Source: Acidobacteriota bacterium
GTDB lineage: Bacteria > Acidobacteriota > Terriglobia > Acidiferrales > UBA7541
Direction: 5' to 3'
Assembly (NCBI GenBank): GCA_003225315.1
Contig: QHZD01000053.1
Location: 1-62,333, forward strand
Length of the DNA stretch: 62,333 nt
In this document: piece by piece, positions 2 to 62,231 of the stretch
Layout of the letters: the number at the start of each line of letters is the position of its first letter
Numbering within the stretch: position 1 is the first letter of the stretch
Made by a program: the position numbers and the translations under genes
Notes under the pieces: model-generated
The model's database searches: none
The model's input: the letters and a program-made list of their open reading frames with translations, nothing else
Told to the model about the DNA's origin: nothing

Positions 2-133
2 GGAAAAGACGCTGCGCTTGGGAATCCCGCAAAAGACGCGGGATTCCCACTTTCCCACAGCTCCAACAACAGTCTTCCCTTCTCGATTCAGGGGGAGGAA
101 AAACCAAAGGCAAGCGGACACACCACGTGCTAA
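2..133 (+). pseudogene. Possible C-terminal tail of an IS transposase (cut by window edge)
   Basis: An open frame enters from the window edge and stops at 131-133, giving 43 residues rich in Gly, Ser, Asn and Pro. It lies just inside a probable IS end (112-164), which is where the last codons of a transposase should be. A perfect 11-bp inverted repeat (20-30 with 38-48, 7-nt loop) sits inside it. No catalytic motif is visible in so short a piece. The frame is chosen only by position, and another frame also stays open for much of this stretch. Confidence 0.35.
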
Positions 134-691: not shown

Positions 692-1152
692 GGGCGGAGT
701 GATGGCGGATAATCCGGGAAAAAAGAGGGAAGAGTCAAAATCCCCACACGCAAAACCAGCGTATCGGGCACCCGGGCGAGCATGTCTTTGCCGAAAGGGG
801 AAGAAGCAGGACTGAAATGAGATTCTAGCCAACCGAATGCTGGAGAAAGCCACGGAACTAGTGAGAACTTTGTAGCGCGAGATTGCTCTTCCGAGCCTGG
901 TCATGACCAACAAAGGACAATTGGGGTGTATTCATGCTTCCCTGATGCTCTGAAATCTAGTTTCTGAGGTGGCCTCTCGTATTGTCACATGGGATCTTAA
1001 AGGAAAAAATCCGTGGCAATCGTATTGCTCGCTGTTTTCGTATTCGCCGCGTCGCGACGGGCGGACAGTAGCGCTCAGACGCAGCACTTTAGGACCGAAA
1101 AGAAGCAAGAGTAAAGAATAGGCATTGACCGCCGGAGTTGGGGGATGCAAAA
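692..1152. other. Intergenic stretch with no recognised gene
   Basis: These 461 bases separate the toxin remnant from the methyltransferase. Open frames on both strands are short and lack ribosome-binding sites or family motifs. No hairpin repeat, tRNA or known riboswitch was recognised. It may be debris from the event that truncated the toxin gene. Confidence 0.5.
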
Positions 1153-2103
1153 ATGATGTTCGATTTGAAAGTACGAGCATCGCCTACGAAATTGATGACC
1201 GACAGTGTCGTCAATGTGGCTGCTGTTCCACACAGGAGTCCTTTCCGTTATCCAGGTGGCAAGACTTGGCTAGTGCCGCACGTCCGCCGGTGGCTAAGGG
1301 GCCTGCCGATCAGGCAACTCGAATTTGCAGAACCCTTCGCTGGGGGAGCTATAGTTGGCCTATCAATTCTTTTCGAGGGTCTCTCTGACAAGCTAGAGCT
1401 AGTCGAATTAGATGAAGATGTCGCCTGCGTTTGGAAGGTAATTCTAAACGGTGGGGCCAAAAAGCTTGCCGAAAAGATTACCACCTTTGACATAACCCTT
1501 AGGTCTGTCAGGTCTGTTTTAGCGGCGGAGCCAAGCGGACTCCTAGACCGGGCTTTCGCGACCATAGTCCGAAACCGCGTACAGCGTGGTGGGATTATGG
1601 CTCCGGGTGCGAGCCTAATGAAGCGCGGTGAGAATGGGAGGGGCGTGAAGTCGCGCTGGTACGCGCAGACCCTTCGAAGGCGCATAGAGGCTATCTCGCT
1701 GATGAGAGATCGTATCAGCTTTGTTTGCGGGGATGGTATTGAGTTCATTCGAAATAATGCTCATCGTCCCCGGGCAGTTTTCTTCATTGATCCACCATAT
1801 ACTGTTGCTGGGCGCCGACTCTATAAACACGCTCAAATTGACCATGCGGAGTTGTTCCGCGTGGCGGACACAATCAAGGGCGATTTCCTTATGAGCTACG
1901 ATAACGCTCCTGATGTGAGAGACCTCGCACAAAGTTTTGGTTTCGATACACAAGAAGTGGCAATGAAGAACACTCATCACGAGGTTATGCGTGAGTTGCT
2001 AATCGGACGATGCCTGGACTGGTCTAGGTCTTTGAGAGCGCCTGGAGTCGCGTGCGAATCTTCTCCTCAAATTTCGCTTGCGCTGGCGGCCGGCCAGCAA
2101 TGA
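1153..2103 (+). CDS. D12-class N6-adenine DNA methyltransferase
   Basis: This protein of about 316 aa transfers a methyl group from SAM to adenine N6. Visible motifs in Dam/D12 order are the SAM-binding start RSPFRYPGGK (about residues 28-37), the EPFAGGA loop, an acidic LVELDED strand, and the catalytic DPPY (about residue 213) inside FFIDPPYTVAGRRLY. The segment RNRVQRGGI fits the Dam-like target-recognition region. I chose the ATG at 1153 because GGGGG lies 8-12 nt upstream; the frame opens at a TTG at 1138. The 3' end overlaps the converging restriction-enzyme gene by 80 bp, so the two are read as a restriction-modification pair. Base composition is lower in GC than most of the window, suggesting transfer. 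The recognition site cannot be read from the sequence. Confidence 0.88.
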   Translation: MMFDLKVRASPTKLMTDSVVNVAAVPHRSPFRYPGGKTWLVPHVRRWLRGLPIRQLEFAEPFAGGAIVGLSILFEGLSDKLELVELDEDVACVWKVILNGGAKKLAEKITTFDITLRSVRSVLAAEPSGLLDRAFATIVRNRVQRGGIMAPGASLMKRGENGRGVKSRWYAQTLRRRIEAISLMRDRISFVCGDGIEFIRNNAHRPRAVFFIDPPYTVAGRRLYKHAQIDHAELFRVADTIKGDFLMSYDNAPDVRDLAQSFGFDTQEVAMKNTHHEVMRELLIGRCLDWSRSLRAPGVACESSPQISLALAAGQQ

Positions 2104-3118
2104 GGCCATCAACGGAGTTCTCTAACGTGGTAAATGCGACTTTCCGGCGCTGCAAGTGAATGGTGTCGTTCTCGTCGTTGTAACCGACCACAAACCAGGC
2201 CACGTCGCAGTTGGACAAGTCGCTCTCTGCCTCCATTCGCCCCATTGCACTAAAAAAGTCCTCGTCAATCAGTACAGCCATTTTCTTGCCCCACCGGCTC
2301 AACGTGGGAACCTTAATCTGGAGCTGTGGCATGAGCCTTTTGGGGGCACTACTTCGATAATCTGGACGCCTAGTTCCTTTCGGAAAAGGCAGGCTGGGAC
2401 CGTTATGAGTCCTGATTTCCTCAAAATGCGAATGCATGTTCGGGCCAGAAAAATAGACTGCTTGGATTTCTACAGCGCACCACTGCAGAGGTTTCGTATC
2501 AGGGACGACCAGAATATTGTCAATGCGGCCGACTTCCCTTAGTGTGCGGGATCCGCCCGCGATGGGGTCGCCTATGAGTGGGACTCTCTCTAGGAAATTG
2601 ACCTGGCCGAGGGCGACCGCAGATGGATCGTCGAGAATTACCTCTCCTATCCAACGGTATATCTCATTGGCTTCCTCAAATCGTATTGGGCAAACGGTTC
2701 GAATGGTGCTTCCCCTGCGATCAGGCGCAACTTCCTGGTCGCTTCCAGATCGTTCGTAGCTCCGGAGTGAACAAACACCACCCTTTTTCGAACACTGCAC
2801 GGGGTTCTCTTGGCTCGATAAGAAGGGGCATAGGGGGATCGATTGTTGGCCTCCCGCGAACTGGAGTTCGGCATATCGCTTGCGCTCCTCCGGCGACAAG
2901 TGCACGAAGGACTTGCCGTACCATTCCCCAATTCCAAAACGGTACTGCGTCTGCTGATTCCTTGGGTCACGTTTGACCATTGTGGTCGGAAGTCTATCAG
3001 AGAAGTTATATGTGATGCTGTTCGAGTGCGTCGACGTCGTGGTCCACGGTGCGCGGCTCACGCTGGATGCGGTGGCAAGAATAGCGGTCGAAAGCAATTC
3101 CTCAGCTGCTAAAGCCAT
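2024..3118 (-). CDS. NotI-fold restriction endonuclease with Cys4 iron site
   Basis: This 364-aa protein resembles NotI restriction endonuclease. Four cysteines in the NotI pattern (C97 in CPF, C109, C116 in GVC, C143 in CP) would bind iron. D200 (GRID) with E217 and Q219 (VEIQ) matches the PD-ExQ active site of NotI, which uses D160, E182 and Q184. The C-terminal half repeats NotI-like strands such as WFVVGYN. It converges with the adenine methyltransferase and overlaps its last 80 bp. The start is uncertain: residues 1-46 are low-complexity, and an ATG at 2980 (MVKRDPRNQQ) could be the true start. Neither has a clear ribosome-binding site. NotI's own methylase modifies cytosine, so pairing with an adenine methylase is unusual. 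Activity is inferred. Confidence 0.72.
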   Translation of the reverse strand: MALAAEELLSTAILATASSVSRAPWTTTSTHSNSITYNFSDRLPTTMVKRDPRNQQTQYRFGIGEWYGKSFVHLSPEERKRYAELQFAGGQQSIPLCPFLSSQENPVQCSKKGGVCSLRSYERSGSDQEVAPDRRGSTIRTVCPIRFEEANEIYRWIGEVILDDPSAVALGQVNFLERVPLIGDPIAGGSRTLREVGRIDNILVVPDTKPLQWCAVEIQAVYFSGPNMHSHFEEIRTHNGPSLPFPKGTRRPDYRSSAPKRLMPQLQIKVPTLSRWGKKMAVLIDEDFFSAMGRMEAESDLSNCDVAWFVVGYNDENDTIHLQRRKVAFTTLENSVDGLIAGRPPAQAKFEEKIRTRLQALSKT

Positions 3119-3553: not shown

Positions 3554-5377
3554 TCATCTTTTTCCTGCCTCCGATATTCCCTCAGGCAGATCGTCCGCGC
3601 GAATGAGAACAGACCCATCCACTTCGGTGTCGCCAGCAATGTATTTCCGGCGCACCTCCTGCTCGATGACTTCGCGGTTCGCTCGGAACACTTCGAGTTT
3701 ATCCATACCGCCTCCATGGAAGTGGTCGTCCAGGGCTTCCCTGCTGATGGCGCAGCGCACCCACGCTTCGCCGTCGTGGCCGTAGAAAAAGACAATGTCG
3801 CGCTCGGGAACAAAAGCCTCTTGGGGCGCGAGAAATGTCAGGTCGTGCTGCTCAAGGCGCCATTGCACGCGGCGGGCGATGAAGGCTGCGAACGGATGGA
3901 TGTCCATCTCGATGCTGGCGCGGTCCATGGCGCTCAGATAAGACTTGCGATCCCGGATGCGAATCACCGTCCAAGGATAGCCGCCCGAAGCCAGCATAAC
4001 GTTCATCAGAAAGCGCGCCATGCGGCCGTTCCCATCCGGGTACGGGTGAATGTAGCCGAAAAGCCAGTGTCCCAACACCGCGCGCACCGAAGGCTCGGGT
4101 TCTTTTTCCAGAAGGTCGAAGAACGCCGGCATGGCGTCGCGCACCGCCTCCCACCTCGGCGGAATGTAGCGCGACCCGCGCAGATACACGGGTATGTTCC
4201 TGTATCCGGCCAATACCCCCGCTTCCATCAGGCCGGCAGTGACACAGGGCTGGAACAATTCGCGATACCAGTCGTTGTGCACGGTGCGCGCCAGCGCGGG
4301 GGCGTTCTCACCCGCGATCACTTTCTCCACTCCTTTTTTCACCAACTGGAACGCTTGCCAGTATCCGCGTGCCGCGAGGGCGTCGCGATTTCTGCGATCG
4401 CCGGCGTCATGCTCGGGGTCCCAGCCGCCCTGCCGCACTCTCTCAACCAGGGCAGGCGTGACGGTGTAGCCTTCAATGGACAACGAGTGGTAAGCATCGG
4501 TCCGATAGATTTCGCCGACGTAGCGAAGATACGCTTCATTGTCTGCCGGAAGTCCCGGCGGTTTGGGGAACGTCGCGAGGACTGGGCCACGCATCGATTC
4601 CCAGAGCATCTCAACGCGGGCCACGATCGGGGCGGTCGGACGGGGCGGCCTCTTGAATATGTGTCCGGCTTCAAATGGGCTGCTCTCTCGTACATCGTAT
4701 CCGGCGCCCTTCATGGCACGGAGAATCTCGTCCGCGTGGTCGGCACGCCCGGTTTGGCGGAAGGCTTTGGCAAGATAACCGGCTTTCGCGGAATGCCCGC
4801 CGTTCAGGAGCAGCCGAAGCACGTCCGAGACGTCACCAAGGCTGGCCATCACCACTTGCGACTCGATGGGATACAACTGAAAGAAGGATTCCGGCACGCG
4901 TACCAACGCCGCCGCCGGCGTAAACAGACGCAATCCGTCCTTCACCAGGAGAGCCGTTGTCGCGGGCATCTCCGCAACCTTCAGATCGTAAAGCGTTGTG
5001 CCGAACAGAAGCTGAATGTCGTTGTTCGTCGCTTTCGGACTGTGTACAACCAGCTGATCCGGGATCACCGTTCTCTCGCCGTGCAAGAAAAGGGACTGCT
5101 CCGGCGACAGGTGCCATTGTTCGCCAAAGCGCTCGTCGCAGTAGCGTGCGCAGAATTCCCAGAACGATGCATGCCACGGGGTGCTCTCGCCGACCTGAGA
5201 GTCGGGGCTGGAAGAGATCAACCAGCCCTTCATGACTTCTTGCAGGAAACCGTTCTCCACCAGGCGTTCGCGGTGAACCCGGCTCAGGTCGTCGGAACGG
5301 AACACACGCCGGTTGGCTTGCTGGAGCGCCTTGAGCTCGTCGAGGGATTCAGCCAGCTTTTCGTTTGGCGAGGGCAT
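3554..5377 (-). CDS. Fic/Fido domain AMP-transferase with AbiEi-like N-terminus
   Basis: This 607-aa protein carries the Fic motif HPYPDGNGR (about residue 444), which binds a nucleotide and transfers AMP or a similar group to a target protein. Upstream, SLSIEG (about residues 296-301) fits the inhibitory S/T-xxx-E-G/N motif of self-inhibited class II Fic proteins. Residues 1-270 contain a winged-helix-like start and a region resembling AbiEi antitoxins, suggesting a DNA-binding, autoregulatory part. I chose the ATG at 5377 because GGGAGG lies just upstream; the frame is open from 5395. Five 24-bp iterons lie directly upstream (5402-5521) and are the obvious operator. It may be a self-contained toxin-antitoxin-like module; the target is unknown. 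Confidence 0.85.
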   Translation of the reverse strand: MPSPNEKLAESLDELKALQQANRRVFRSDDLSRVHRERLVENGFLQEVMKGWLISSSPDSQVGESTPWHASFWEFCARYCDERFGEQWHLSPEQSLFLHGERTVIPDQLVVHSPKATNNDIQLLFGTTLYDLKVAEMPATTALLVKDGLRLFTPAAALVRVPESFFQLYPIESQVVMASLGDVSDVLRLLLNGGHSAKAGYLAKAFRQTGRADHADEILRAMKGAGYDVRESSPFEAGHIFKRPPRPTAPIVARVEMLWESMRGPVLATFPKPPGLPADNEAYLRYVGEIYRTDAYHSLSIEGYTVTPALVERVRQGGWDPEHDAGDRRNRDALAARGYWQAFQLVKKGVEKVIAGENAPALARTVHNDWYRELFQPCVTAGLMEAGVLAGYRNIPVYLRGSRYIPPRWEAVRDAMPAFFDLLEKEPEPSVRAVLGHWLFGYIHPYPDGNGRMARFLMNVMLASGGYPWTVIRIRDRKSYLSAMDRASIEMDIHPFAAFIARRVQWRLEQHDLTFLAPQEAFVPERDIVFFYGHDGEAWVRCAISREALDDHFHGGGMDKLEVFRANREVIEQEVRRKYIAGDTEVDGSVLIRADDLPEGISEAGKR

Positions 5378-5401
5378 GGAACCTCCCATCTTCATGGGGG
5401 C

Positions 5402-5521
5402 ATTACAAGTCTATTGTGGTGCGTGAATACAAGTATATAGCGCCGAGGGATTACAAGTCAATTGCGCCGTATAAATACAAGTTAATTGCGTTGTGTAAAT
5501 GCAAGTATATACTGCTTGTTG
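5402..5521. promoter_or_regulatory. Five tandem 24-bp iterons upstream of the Fic gene
   Basis: The word A(A/T)T(A/G)CAAGT starts at 5402, 5426, 5450, 5474 and 5498, so the period is exactly 24 bp over five copies. Each is followed by an AT-rich half such as CTATT, ATATA, CAATT, TAATT or ATATA. The remaining 10 bp of each unit vary. Conserved words on a fixed period are typical of a protein-binding array. The array ends 25 bp from the Fic start codon and should overlap its promoter, so autorepression by the Fic N-terminal domain is the simplest reading. No replication gene is nearby, which argues against an origin. Confidence 0.8.
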
Positions 5522-5619
5522 TGTAGCTAAGCTACGTATATTCAATTAGTTGCATGTAGTAGAACTATGTGGGAACGTCCCCCTTGCGCTCAGAAAAAGG
5601 CGGCCATCCGGCGTGCAAA

Positions 5620-6480
5620 TCAGGAGCGCAATTCGCCACTGTGTCCACCCTTCAGCTTCCCGCGCAGCAGATCCTCGAGGTCGCCCATTTGGTCGCCCAG
5701 CAGGTTTAACTTCCTCGCCAGGCCTTGAATTTCGGACTCGGCGCGGCGATTGACGGCGTAATCCAGTTCGCTGCGCACGCGGTCTTTCCGGTCCTGCCGG
5801 TTCTGGCTCATCATGATCACCGGCGCCTGAATCGCCGCCAGCAACGACAGAATCAGATTCAGCAAGATAAACGGATACGGATCCCAAGCCGCCCTGCGCA
5901 TGCCAACATTGATAGCCGTGTAGATGCTGCTGATCACCATAAAACCAATAATAAATTTCCACGATCCGCCGAACTGCACCATGGAGTCCGCGATGCGCTC
6001 CGCCAGCGTGGATTTCTCTTCGATCACGTCGTTCGCGTTGCGCATGGCGCGAACGCGCACCAGTTGCTGCGAGGAGTGAAACTGCTTTCCCAGCACGGTC
6101 AGCATGTCCATCCCCGCATGCGGCTTGCGTTGCAGCAGCGTCGCAATGTCGCCGCGGCTGACTTCCAGGCATTGGGTATTTTCCATGGCCGTGGCGTTGG
6201 TTTGATGAGGCGTCTGCTCCAGCATCGAGGCGAAGCCGAAAAATTCGCCGTGCGCCGGCTCGTCCACCACCACTTCCTGCTGGTCTTCGTCCACCGTAGT
6301 CACGCGCACCTTTCCCGAGACCATCACGTAGGCTTGCCCGCCTGGATCGCCCATTTTGTAAATGCGCTGCCGCGGAGCGAAATTCTTCAGCTCCACTTGC
6401 GCCGCCAGCACGGCGGTTTCGTCGGCGTCCAGCAGAGCAAACAGCGGAACGTGTTTCAACACTTCAGGATTGCAGGCCAT
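5620..6480 (-). CDS. Cyclic nucleotide-binding domain plus DUF1003 membrane protein
   Basis: This protein has about 286 aa. Residues 12-130 form a cyclic nucleotide-binding (CAP-like) domain, with the turn GDPGGQAYVMVSGKVRV and the phosphate-binding GEFFGFASMLEQTP. A DUF1003 part follows, with two membrane segments (about residues 160-180 and 188-212) and a charged coiled-coil tail (NRQDRKDRVRSELDYAVNRR). The layout suggests a membrane protein gated or regulated by a nucleotide. The ATG at 6480 is preceded by GAAGAGGTGG and was preferred over the longer frame. It stands alone between the Fic gene and the B3/4 gene. Function beyond the domains is not known. Confidence 0.85.
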   Translation of the reverse strand: MACNPEVLKHVPLFALLDADETAVLAAQVELKNFAPRQRIYKMGDPGGQAYVMVSGKVRVTTVDEDQQEVVVDEPAHGEFFGFASMLEQTPHQTNATAMENTQCLEVSRGDIATLLQRKPHAGMDMLTVLGKQFHSSQQLVRVRAMRNANDVIEEKSTLAERIADSMVQFGGSWKFIIGFMVISSIYTAINVGMRRAAWDPYPFILLNLILSLLAAIQAPVIMMSQNRQDRKDRVRSELDYAVNRRAESEIQGLARKLNLLGDQMGDLEDLLRGKLKGGHSGELRS

Positions 6481-21271: not shown

Positions 21272-22477
21272 TTACTCGCCGGGGCATCCCGTTTTGTCAA
21301 GTTCCTGCAATCTCTTGATGGCTCCGGCGTTTCGCTTCTCGGACGCCACCATCAACAGCACGCGCGCCTGTGTGCAGTTCTGGGGCACGCCATTTCCTTG
21401 GATGTAGAGTTCGGCGAGCTCCAACGCCGCCTTGCTGTTGCCAGCTTGCACGGAAGCCCACAGTTGCTCGGGGGTCCTCGCGGGTTGGCTCTTGCTCGCA
21501 ATTTCGCTCGAATGTACTTGAGCGGCGGATGGCGTGGATGCAGCGACGGGCTTGGCCGACTCCGTCGTGTGCGAACGAGCCAGCAAGGTGGCTGTTTCCA
21601 ACTGAGGATTCAGCACGTGCCCCGAAGACGACGCCTTCTTCGGATTGCTGCCTGAAAAAATATCCGCGGAACTTGCATTGGTTGCAGCCGGAGCTGCCGG
21701 TGGAGTCACAGCGGAGGGTCCTGCCGTCGGCTGCTTGATTTCAGGTTCCGTTCTCGCGGCGCGCGATTCTTCGGACACTTTCTCTGGGCCACGGCTTTGG
21801 CGCAGGTAATTCGAAAACTTCAGCGCAGCCATAGCGAACATCGAAGAGATGCAAATACCAAGAATTAAGCCGAAAATCAGTTGTCTTCTCTTCGCGGCAA
21901 CGTACTTCTGCACGGGCACCAACACTGACGGTTGCGCCTGTACCGCCGGTTCTTCAAAAATCGATGCGGGCATGTCGGCGCTGGCAGAACCCTCAACAGC
22001 GCTGAAAAGCGTGGAGTGCCGCGGCCGGGCCTTTGAAACGAATGCCGCAACCGCGTCTAATTTCCCTTTTCCGAACCTGTCAGGCCTGCTCTCGGGGCCG
22101 GGTCTGCGTGCGGACTCTTCATCAACAGCTTGCCGCCGGGAGAACTCCGTCATCCATCGGCGAATCTGTGCGCGGGCTTCCTCGGAAAGGCGCAGGAACC
22201 TCAGGCCGCCGCATTTTTTTGTCGCATTGGTCCAGACCACTTCTCCCCACGCCTCGATCCGGTCCCGCAGGTTGAGCGAAAACCAAAAATGGACCGGTCC
22301 ATTCGGGTTCACCGGGGCGAAAGTCTCAAAGCCCAGGCCCCCTTCGGACACATCCAGCACGGTTCCGCCGTCATCCCGCTCCAATTGAAGGAAGACAAAC
22401 TCGTTCGGCACGATTCTAAGCTTTTGCCGACGATGCAGGTTCATGTTCTGCAGATTCAGGTTCCTTAGAAGACTCAT
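21272..22477 (-). CDS. PilZ domain membrane protein with C-terminal Sel1-like repeats
   Basis: This 401-aa protein has an N-terminal PilZ domain (about residues 14-110) with RRQKLR and VLDVSEGGLGFET, matching the RxxxR and D/NxSxxG motifs that bind cyclic di-GMP. A single membrane helix follows (LIFGLILGICISSMFAMAAL, about residues 198-218). A low-complexity linker then leads to Sel1/TPR-like helices near the C-terminus (AALELAELYIQGNGVPQNC). The layout suggests a cyclic di-GMP signal on the inner side linked to a scaffold across the membrane. An alternative ATG lies 33 bp downstream (22444). It is one of two PilZ genes within 6 kb. Confidence 0.8.
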   Translation of the reverse strand: MSLLRNLNLQNMNLHRRQKLRIVPNEFVFLQLERDDGGTVLDVSEGGLGFETFAPVNPNGPVHFWFSLNLRDRIEAWGEVVWTNATKKCGGLRFLRLSEEARAQIRRWMTEFSRRQAVDEESARRPGPESRPDRFGKGKLDAVAAFVSKARPRHSTLFSAVEGSASADMPASIFEEPAVQAQPSVLVPVQKYVAAKRRQLIFGLILGICISSMFAMAALKFSNYLRQSRGPEKVSEESRAARTEPEIKQPTAGPSAVTPPAAPAATNASSADIFSGSNPKKASSSGHVLNPQLETATLLARSHTTESAKPVAASTPSAAQVHSSEIASKSQPARTPEQLWASVQAGNSKAALELAELYIQGNGVPQNCTQARVLLMVASEKRNAGAIKRLQELDKTGCPGE

Positions 22478-62178: not shown

Positions 62179-62231
62179 TGTCGTTAGCACATGATATGTC
62201 CGCTTGATTAGCATGTGAAATGTCCGCTTTT
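62179..62231 (+). repeat. Terminal repeat of an insertion sequence, right copy
   Basis: The stretch starts TGTCGTTAGCA and has two units TTAGCA...TGTCCGCTT 24 bp apart, matching the left end at 112-164 read in the other direction. It is followed by a transposase start, so this is the 5' end of an IS running out of the window. Confidence 0.7.

Follow-up and report, generated by a model that had tools for sequence, protein, structure and literature searches.

The window, the whole 62,333-nucleotide stretch of Acidobacteriota DNA analysed here, contains a Fic gene preceded by five 24-bp direct repeats, and this array is very probably the operator of the gene, with the Fic protein binding at about one molecule per unit, covering an internal promoter and repressing its own synthesis. 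The computed evidence consists of the array, its conservation upstream of homologues, promoter-like hexamers in one clade of relatives (the CTTG clade), an AbiEi-like fold of the modelled N-terminus, and covariation between protein residues and array bases. From these features, which support the idea of autoregulation, we infer direct binding, its stoichiometry, the half-site contacted by each part of the protein, and repression.

The repeat array and the Fic protein

The array occupies positions 5399–5518 and is read on the minus strand, with units (gene-proximal first) at 5399–5422, 5423–5446, 5447–5470, 5471–5494 and 5495–5518. It was delimited by its exact period and its recurrence upstream of homologues, and ends about 20 nt upstream of the Fic start codon. 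Each unit comprises an ACARCA-like half (positions 1–6), an A/T tract (positions 9–12) and the word ACTTG (positions 13–17). A search of the whole window for A(A/T)T(A/G)CAAGT returned plus-strand matches only at 5402, 5426, 5450, 5474 and 5498, and one minus-strand match near 21679, confirming the five words at exact 24-bp steps upstream of a Fic gene that had been described in the original prediction. Counted from 5397, 65 of 96 positions match at a lag of 24, and the array is the most periodic stretch of the window for periods of 10–60; the runner-up, the best stretch other than the array's own 48-bp harmonic, scores 51. The top lag scores in Markov controls were 49 (30 copies of the window) and 48 (2000 copies of the local sequence), so the array exceeds chance. 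TRF covers only 5452–5506 of the array, because its units have diverged.

A repeat search found no inverted pair inside the array at its seed length, and the repeats are direct. Searching the organism's own genome (57 contigs) for the pair of words with at most two mismatches gave just four overlapping pairs, all within the array, and no second copy. At the end of the window (62184–62229) there is a two-copy repeat that also has a 24-bp period, with the unit TTAGCACATGAAATGTCCGCTTGA, unlike the operator unit. Bound proteins had been expected to lie on nearly one face of the helix, which is rejected by arithmetic: at 10.5 bp per turn, 24 bp corresponds to 2.29 turns, a rotation of about 103 degrees per unit, so bound neighbours would spiral round the DNA.

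The Fic gene lies at 3557–5377 on the minus strand, as do all protein features below, and encodes 607 residues from the ATG at 5377 (stop codon, 3554–3556). The open reading frame list gives an alternative start at 5395, for 613 residues; ATG 5377 is most likely the start codon, judging from the GGGAGG just 5' of it (5387–5382) and the alignment of relatives from the same Met. The protein begins with a predicted winged helix-turn-helix (residues 1–61; 5195–5377), with a strongly conserved helix at 33–41 and a wing turn at 50–51, followed by an AbiEi-like second domain with a nucleotidyltransferase-like fold in the structure model (residues 62–236; 4670–5194). Within the latter, a β-hairpin (residues 108–122; 5012–5056) carries the putative specificity residues Thr117-Asn118-Asn119, assigned from covariation and the model. 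Pfam gave no match in the first 240 residues and no AbiEi family anywhere in the protein, even at E values as high as 1. The AlphaFold model of residues 1–236 has a pLDDT of 93.5, and its closest structural counterparts are the antitoxin Rv2827c (Z 10.4, 216 residues aligned, rmsd 4.7) and AbiEi of S. agalactiae (Z 8.9, 177 residues, rmsd 5.2), followed by matches with Z of 7.7 or lower. The predicted fold bears out the AbiEi-like N-terminus proposed earlier, and in the model the likeness spans both the winged helix and the second domain.

Class II Fic proteins are defined by an inhibitory motif of the form (S/T)xxxE(G/N). The window protein carries SLSIEG (SxxxEG; residues 298–303; 4469–4486), N-terminal to the Fic core, with S298, E302 and G303 invariant in a 14-row alignment. 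The active-site motif HPYPDGNGRMAR (residues 444–455; 4013–4048; PF02661, E 4.3e-13) conforms to HxFx(D/E)GNGRxxR with Tyr replacing Phe, and its key residues are invariant in the same 14 rows. The protein is a predicted AMPylase with intact Fic and inhibitory motifs; the class II layout is also given in the accessible text of PMC12249575. The PADLOC SoFic profile matches residues 296–515 (E 8.6e-22) over profile positions 56–265 of 361 only. At the C-terminus is a DUF1488 fusion (3605–3835; PF07369, E 3.1e-11). Among the best 80 of 517 relatives, the three closest (L027–L029) match the window protein as far as residues 597–599, and the remaining ones end earlier. Adjoining the Fic gene downstream is a gene for a NotI-like endonuclease (2024–3118, minus strand; PF12183, E 9.6e-58), convergent and overlapping with a D12-class adenine methyltransferase gene (1138–2103, plus strand); the two (1138–3118) are a possible restriction-modification pair.

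Conservation and anatomy of the array

Homologues were found in 21 of the 396 genomes of the phylum, the organism's own counted, and the contig scan used the best 80 of 517 relatives. Record titles among the matches listed include Acidobacteria, alpha-, beta- and gammaproteobacteria (some by genus), Desulfobacteraceae, Bacteroidota, Vampirovibrio/Obscuribacterales, a Spirochaetia bin, Myxococcales, Acidimicrobiaceae and Chlorobiota, which we take to amount to at least nine phyla. Analysis of the 200 nt upstream of 99 loci gave a best period of 24 in 73, 48 in 23, 47 in two and 46 in one, while control stretches inside the Fic genes gave scattered best periods; from this survey onward, partial or split genes (L024–L026) were left out of all counts. 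The earlier loci, together with 12 plasmid relatives and minus two duplicates (L032, L057), made up 109 distinct upstreams. Periodicity was significant in 100 of these (0.01, dinucleotide shuffles), at 24 or 48 in 96 and at 23, 46 or 47 in four, and in 6 of 108 downstream controls, none of them at 23, 24, 46, 47 or 48. The nine non-significant upstreams were L017, L021, L022, L029, L055, L077, L082, L084 and L124, among which L077, the Spirochaetia locus, has period 24 with p 0.015, above the 0.01 limit, and L124 is a divergent copy with two weak units on plasmid p5482 of Bacteroides thetaiotaomicron VPI-5482. A further 47 upstreams yielded 37 significant cases, with periods of 24 (28), 48 (4), 23 (3), 46 (1) and 32 (1), so that 36 fall at 23, 24, 46 or 48. 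The check proposed with the original prediction, a search for the array upstream of homologous genes, comes out in its favour: this Fic family conserves the array.

The most distant relatives (27–37% identity over the module) tend to 23 bp (L128–L130, L159, L160, L167), yet L140, with 37% identity, has a 24-bp period. A divergent subfamily from Bacteroidota genomes, Deefgea and Vibrio (L159–L164, L167, L129, L130) shows the same tendency to 23-bp spacing and has a different hairpin loop, for example TVITTEGG; the 24-bp model finds no units in this subfamily (L129, L130, L159–L167). At L029 the array is down to a single unit, and farther upstream (L029:3750–4000) another repeat, GATGCCGATCA-like by eye and with steps of about 23 bp, looks like the end of a mobile element. 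Gene copies broken by stop codons are present in two genomes (L025/L026 and L180/L181), one of which (G1172) also has an intact copy, L171.

A motif model built from the 99 loci revealed ACARCA at positions 1–6 (C5, 94%), A9 (91%), C14 (86%) and T15 (83%), with the word at positions 13–17. In a fit that allowed spacings of 23–25, with a penalty on 23 and 25, 282 of 286 spacings were 24, and 76 of the 99 loci have four or five units. The half-site scores 3.0 bits before the first word (75 arrays) and −2.6 bits after the last (61 arrays), values to which selection by motif fitting may have contributed. Arrays start with the ACARCA half and finish with the word, which makes the natural unit a half-site followed by a word, in one orientation. 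The word varies by lineage at constant spacing: ACTTG and GCTTG occur in one protein clade, and CCTAA, GCTAA, GCGAA, ACTAA, GATAA and others elsewhere.

A likely promoter lies inside the array at 5432–5461 on the minus strand, with a −35 hexamer TTGACT (5461–5456), an 18-bp spacer and a −10 hexamer TATACT (5437–5432); transcription would be expected to start near 5425. The hexamers match the consensus at 10 of 12 letters and fill positions 10–15 of units −3 (−35) and −2 (−10); this is the sole promoter-like site found in 5300–5620, and with shuffles averaging 0.5 it is, taken alone, no better than chance. Among CTTG-clade loci with at least three units, positions 10–15 match TTGACA at five or more of six letters in unit −3 in 19 of 30 loci, and TATAAT to the same degree in unit −2 in 14 of 30, with both hexamers in 13. 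Controls shifted by one unit gave TTGACA-like matches in 0/30 and 0/28 (0/58) and TATAAT-like matches in 1/30 and 0/28 (1/58). As the hexamers stand at equal positions in successive units, one repeat period spans the step from −35 to −10 across a spacer of 18 bp. Unit-specific deviations in the CTAA clade are weaker (T1, G3, A4 and T24 of unit −3), and a promoter is at best weakly visible there and is not claimed.

Covariation between the hairpin and the array word

In an open scan that paired 232 residues with the 24 positions of the unit, residue 119 with position 13 ranked first (z 9.7) and residue 117 with position 13 second (z 8.1). The corresponding rule is that Asn119 goes with A at unit position 13, His119 or Arg117 with G, and Lys119 together with Gly117 or Asp117 with C; in the window protein, Asn119 pairs with A. 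The discovery set comprised 94 loci, 11 of them without a call, and the rule was correct in 80 of 83 calls, the failures being L061 and L081 (G where C was predicted) and L037, which has a mixed array. In a held-out set of 59 loci, 31 were scored (three or more units and a good score; units were located without use of position 13), and all 20 calls were correct (A 12, G 5, C 3); these do not amount to 20 independent tests, as L183–L185 are closely related and L172 and L179 share a genome. Eight held-out loci below these limits (fewer than three units or a low score) gave seven agreements and one disagreement (L129, with no 24-bp array found). Dropped from the test were L145 (upstream too short) and the duplicates L143, L155 and L161; partial hits (L168, L169, L181) and loci already among the discovery genes (L107–L121, L135–L139) stood outside it. 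The upstream DNA of L122–L133 had been viewed before the test, but was not used in making the rule.

Over 132 loci, A accompanies Asn119 in 44 of the 45 cases that lack Arg117, G accompanies Arg117 in all 26 and His119 in all 8, and C accompanies the combination of Gly117 and Lys119 in 20 of 22. Amino acids have known base preferences, Asn for A, Arg or His for G, and Lys for C as G on the opposite strand. The covariation follows these preferences.

On a module tree built without the loop, base 13 has undergone at least 32 changes. Traits simulated with about 22 and about 35 changes reached maxima of 107 and 88 of 114, against 110 observed (0 of 1000 runs in each case); the 110 of 114 refers to a slightly widened rule devised after the held-out test. 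The first two rates lie on either side of the tree's own number of changes; a simulated rate much slower than the data allow (about 12 changes) matched 110 in 9 of 1000 runs, and an independent-pairs sign test on well-supported branches gave four or five pairs, none contrary, which is too few to decide. The tree set comprised loci with at least three units (held-out score above 12), minus L076, L101, L029 and L023.

Word distances, corrected for whole-protein distance, are tracked best by residues 101–128. Given the rest of the protein, the partial correlation reached 0.25 in the Fic domain, 0.21 in the second AbiEi-like domain and 0.09 in the winged helix, so that across the whole set correlation at the level of domains does not point to the AbiEi-like module. 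Within the CTAA clade, the hairpin window 106–120 has a partial r of 0.63, the second domain 0.25 and the Fic domain 0.06. In the CTTG clade, 187–201 scores highest among the 15-residue windows (0.50), and the best single column is 119, with 0.94 for position 13. These analyses used loci with at least three units, minus L076, L101, L029, L023, L084, L106, L063 and L096. The recognition helix was dropped as the specificity reader, given its little variation and the small partial r of the winged helix as a whole (0.09 overall, near zero or negative within clades). The original proposal, that the Fic protein with its AbiEi-like N-terminus may bind its own array, is modified: the base at position 13, where the word begins, follows residues 117 and 119 of a hairpin in the module's second half and not the recognition helix.

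Further couplings were seen between wing-turn residue 50 and position 8 (Arg with T in 7 of 9) and between Gly118 and G15 (8 of 8), both of which may be lineage effects; high-scoring pairs such as 197 × 24 and 25 × 16 look like clade effects. No clean single-residue code emerged for positions 14–17.

Proposed mechanism, alternatives and known systems

In the proposed mechanism, the array would be read by the Fic protein itself, a predicted self-inhibited AMPylase of class II with an AbiEi-like module fused to it, with about one molecule per 24-bp unit and all molecules oriented alike. The conserved winged helix would read the constant ACARCA half, toward the distal half of the unit, while the hairpin loop of the second domain (117–119) would sit over the variable word and read it. 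Near-absolute spacing suggests that bound neighbours touch. With the promoter inside the array, filled sites would block transcription, so that occupation of the four or five sites would limit Fic synthesis; repression is proposed because the array overlaps the promoter-like hexamers. The gene would thus form a one-gene module under autorepression, its word and loop evolving together, and class II autoinhibition would hold the enzyme quiet pending some signal. The suggestion that the Fic protein may bind its own array is backed by the covariation between protein residues and array bases.

The predicted N-terminus shares the two-domain fold of AbiEi (S. agalactiae) and Rv2827c (M. tuberculosis), which the accessible text of PMC3985639 and PMC7319586 describes as monomers that autoregulate their own operons through 23-bp sites, with the second domain of AbiEi required for autoregulation and its charged residues for DNA binding. 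Their operators are described there as inverted repeats (two, or two pairs), unlike the four or five head-to-tail 24-bp repeats of the Fic genes, and base-specific residues in a second-domain hairpin were not found in those portions of either paper. The AbiEi type IV system has a separate AbiEii nucleotidyltransferase toxin gene, whereas here the module is fused to Fic, and no neighbour family recurs in more than 4 of 78 loci. The window protein accordingly has the winged helix and nucleotidyltransferase-like domain of AbiEi in the model, and lacks the separate toxin and inverted-repeat operator. Among 30 AbiEi_4 loci without Fic (where the first Met in the longest open frame covering the match served as a guess at the start codon), none had a significant 23- or 24-bp tandem period, and two were significantly periodic, at 37 and 41 bp. 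Similarity of the AbiE operator to the array unit was weak, lay in another register and was equalled by 18 and 11 of 500 shuffles, and was not counted as evidence.

CccR of Yersinia pseudotuberculosis, also a Fic protein, represses its own promoter, to which it binds as a dimer with a C-terminal HTH on two inverted 10-bp boxes 26 bp apart, according to the accessible text of PMC9755527; the window protein differs in its N-terminal DNA-binding fold and direct repeats, and is not of the CccR type. SoFic-type anti-phage Fic proteins have the class II core in common, and neither an AbiEi-like module nor an operator array was found for them in the accessible text of PMC12249575. Nor was a tandem array found for AbiEi, Rv2827c, CccR or CbFic2 in the accessible portions of PMC3985639, PMC7319586, PMC9755527 and PMC10628234. 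A literature search by title and opening of the abstract, with a scope that takes in few subscription papers, returned no report of tandem operator arrays of Fic genes. AbiEi autoregulation and a Fic autorepressor were already known; what appears new here is an AbiEi-like module fused to Fic, with a proposed direct-repeat operator and a readable code.

Alternatively, Fic may bind the array mainly to assemble on DNA and so switch AMPylation, with autorepression secondary. CbFic2 of Coxiella burnetii, also a class II Fic protein with a DNA-binding domain, is stimulated and dimerised by DNA according to the accessible text of PMC10628234, and differs in that its HTH is C-terminal and that it was tried with random DNA sequences, with no operator found described there; FICD is switched by its oligomeric state (accessible text of PMC6826200), and exact spacing despite great divergence suggests contacts between neighbours. 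The promoter-like hexamers within CTTG-clade arrays nevertheless fit plain repression, and we consider assembly as the main role unlikely.

It is very unlikely that an unlinked regulator, such as a host factor or phage protein, reads the array and the Fic gene is merely its target. Many regulators use tandem sites, and Fic binding is here deduced from computed features; but in held-out loci the array base can be told from residues of the Fic protein, the fit exceeds that of traits simulated on the tree at matched rates, and the array accompanies the same gene in many lineages and on plasmids, without a recurrent neighbour.

Iterons, too, typically come as four or five direct repeats of about 20 bp close to a gene, so the array could be read as the plasmid relic of a replication or partition system. 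Relatives of the Fic gene do occur on plasmids, and one of 23 plasmid stretches (L186) has a repA partition gene nearby. Against this origin, which is extremely unlikely, stand the promoter hexamers inside the array, the covariation with the Fic protein, and the neighbourhood: no Rep gene recurs, and among the matches listed no neighbour family (ORFs of at least 90 aa within 2.5 kb) is found in more than 4 of 78 contig loci, for which reason a partner gene for Fic was also dropped. On four Agrobacterium/Rhizobium plasmids (L123, L125, L126, L127), the Fic gene directly follows traH, with traM nearby in three; these loci have TTAGTG-type arrays and the loop residues Asn117 and Gln119. Chance, or functionless mutational tandem duplication, which can create direct repeats, is refuted by conservation at many unrelated loci (100 of 109 upstreams significant), and the units of a single locus have diverged widely with no loss of their spacing or key bases.

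An autorepressing Fic protein bound to its own operator array thus remains the preferred reading, and turns a repeat spotted by eye into a testable operator system that offers a control route for a widespread Fic class. It also suggests base reading by AbiEi-like second domains, which may inform work on AbiE antitoxins, and raises the question of DNA gating of an AMPylase. A tentative extension, which we hold to be unlikely, is a self-written recognition code in which two or three hairpin residues set the word, array and loop change in step and paralogues in one cell stay insulated, and in which the array may template a head-to-tail Fic filament that keeps the AMPylase in one set state, off or primed; if so, promoter DNA would be the antitoxin of a one-gene toxin-antitoxin system. 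The family supplies natural pairs of protein and operator in which the choice of one base seems to depend on one loop, and these would be useful for protein-DNA specificity work and orthogonal repressors. In a Mesorhizobium genome (G398), three copies have three words: L041 has ACTTG with Asn119, L134 has CCTAA with Gly117 and Lys119, and L140 has CATTG with Gly117 and Glu119, which, from the sequences, looks like insulation. The two copies in genome G1158 (L172, L179) have one common word.
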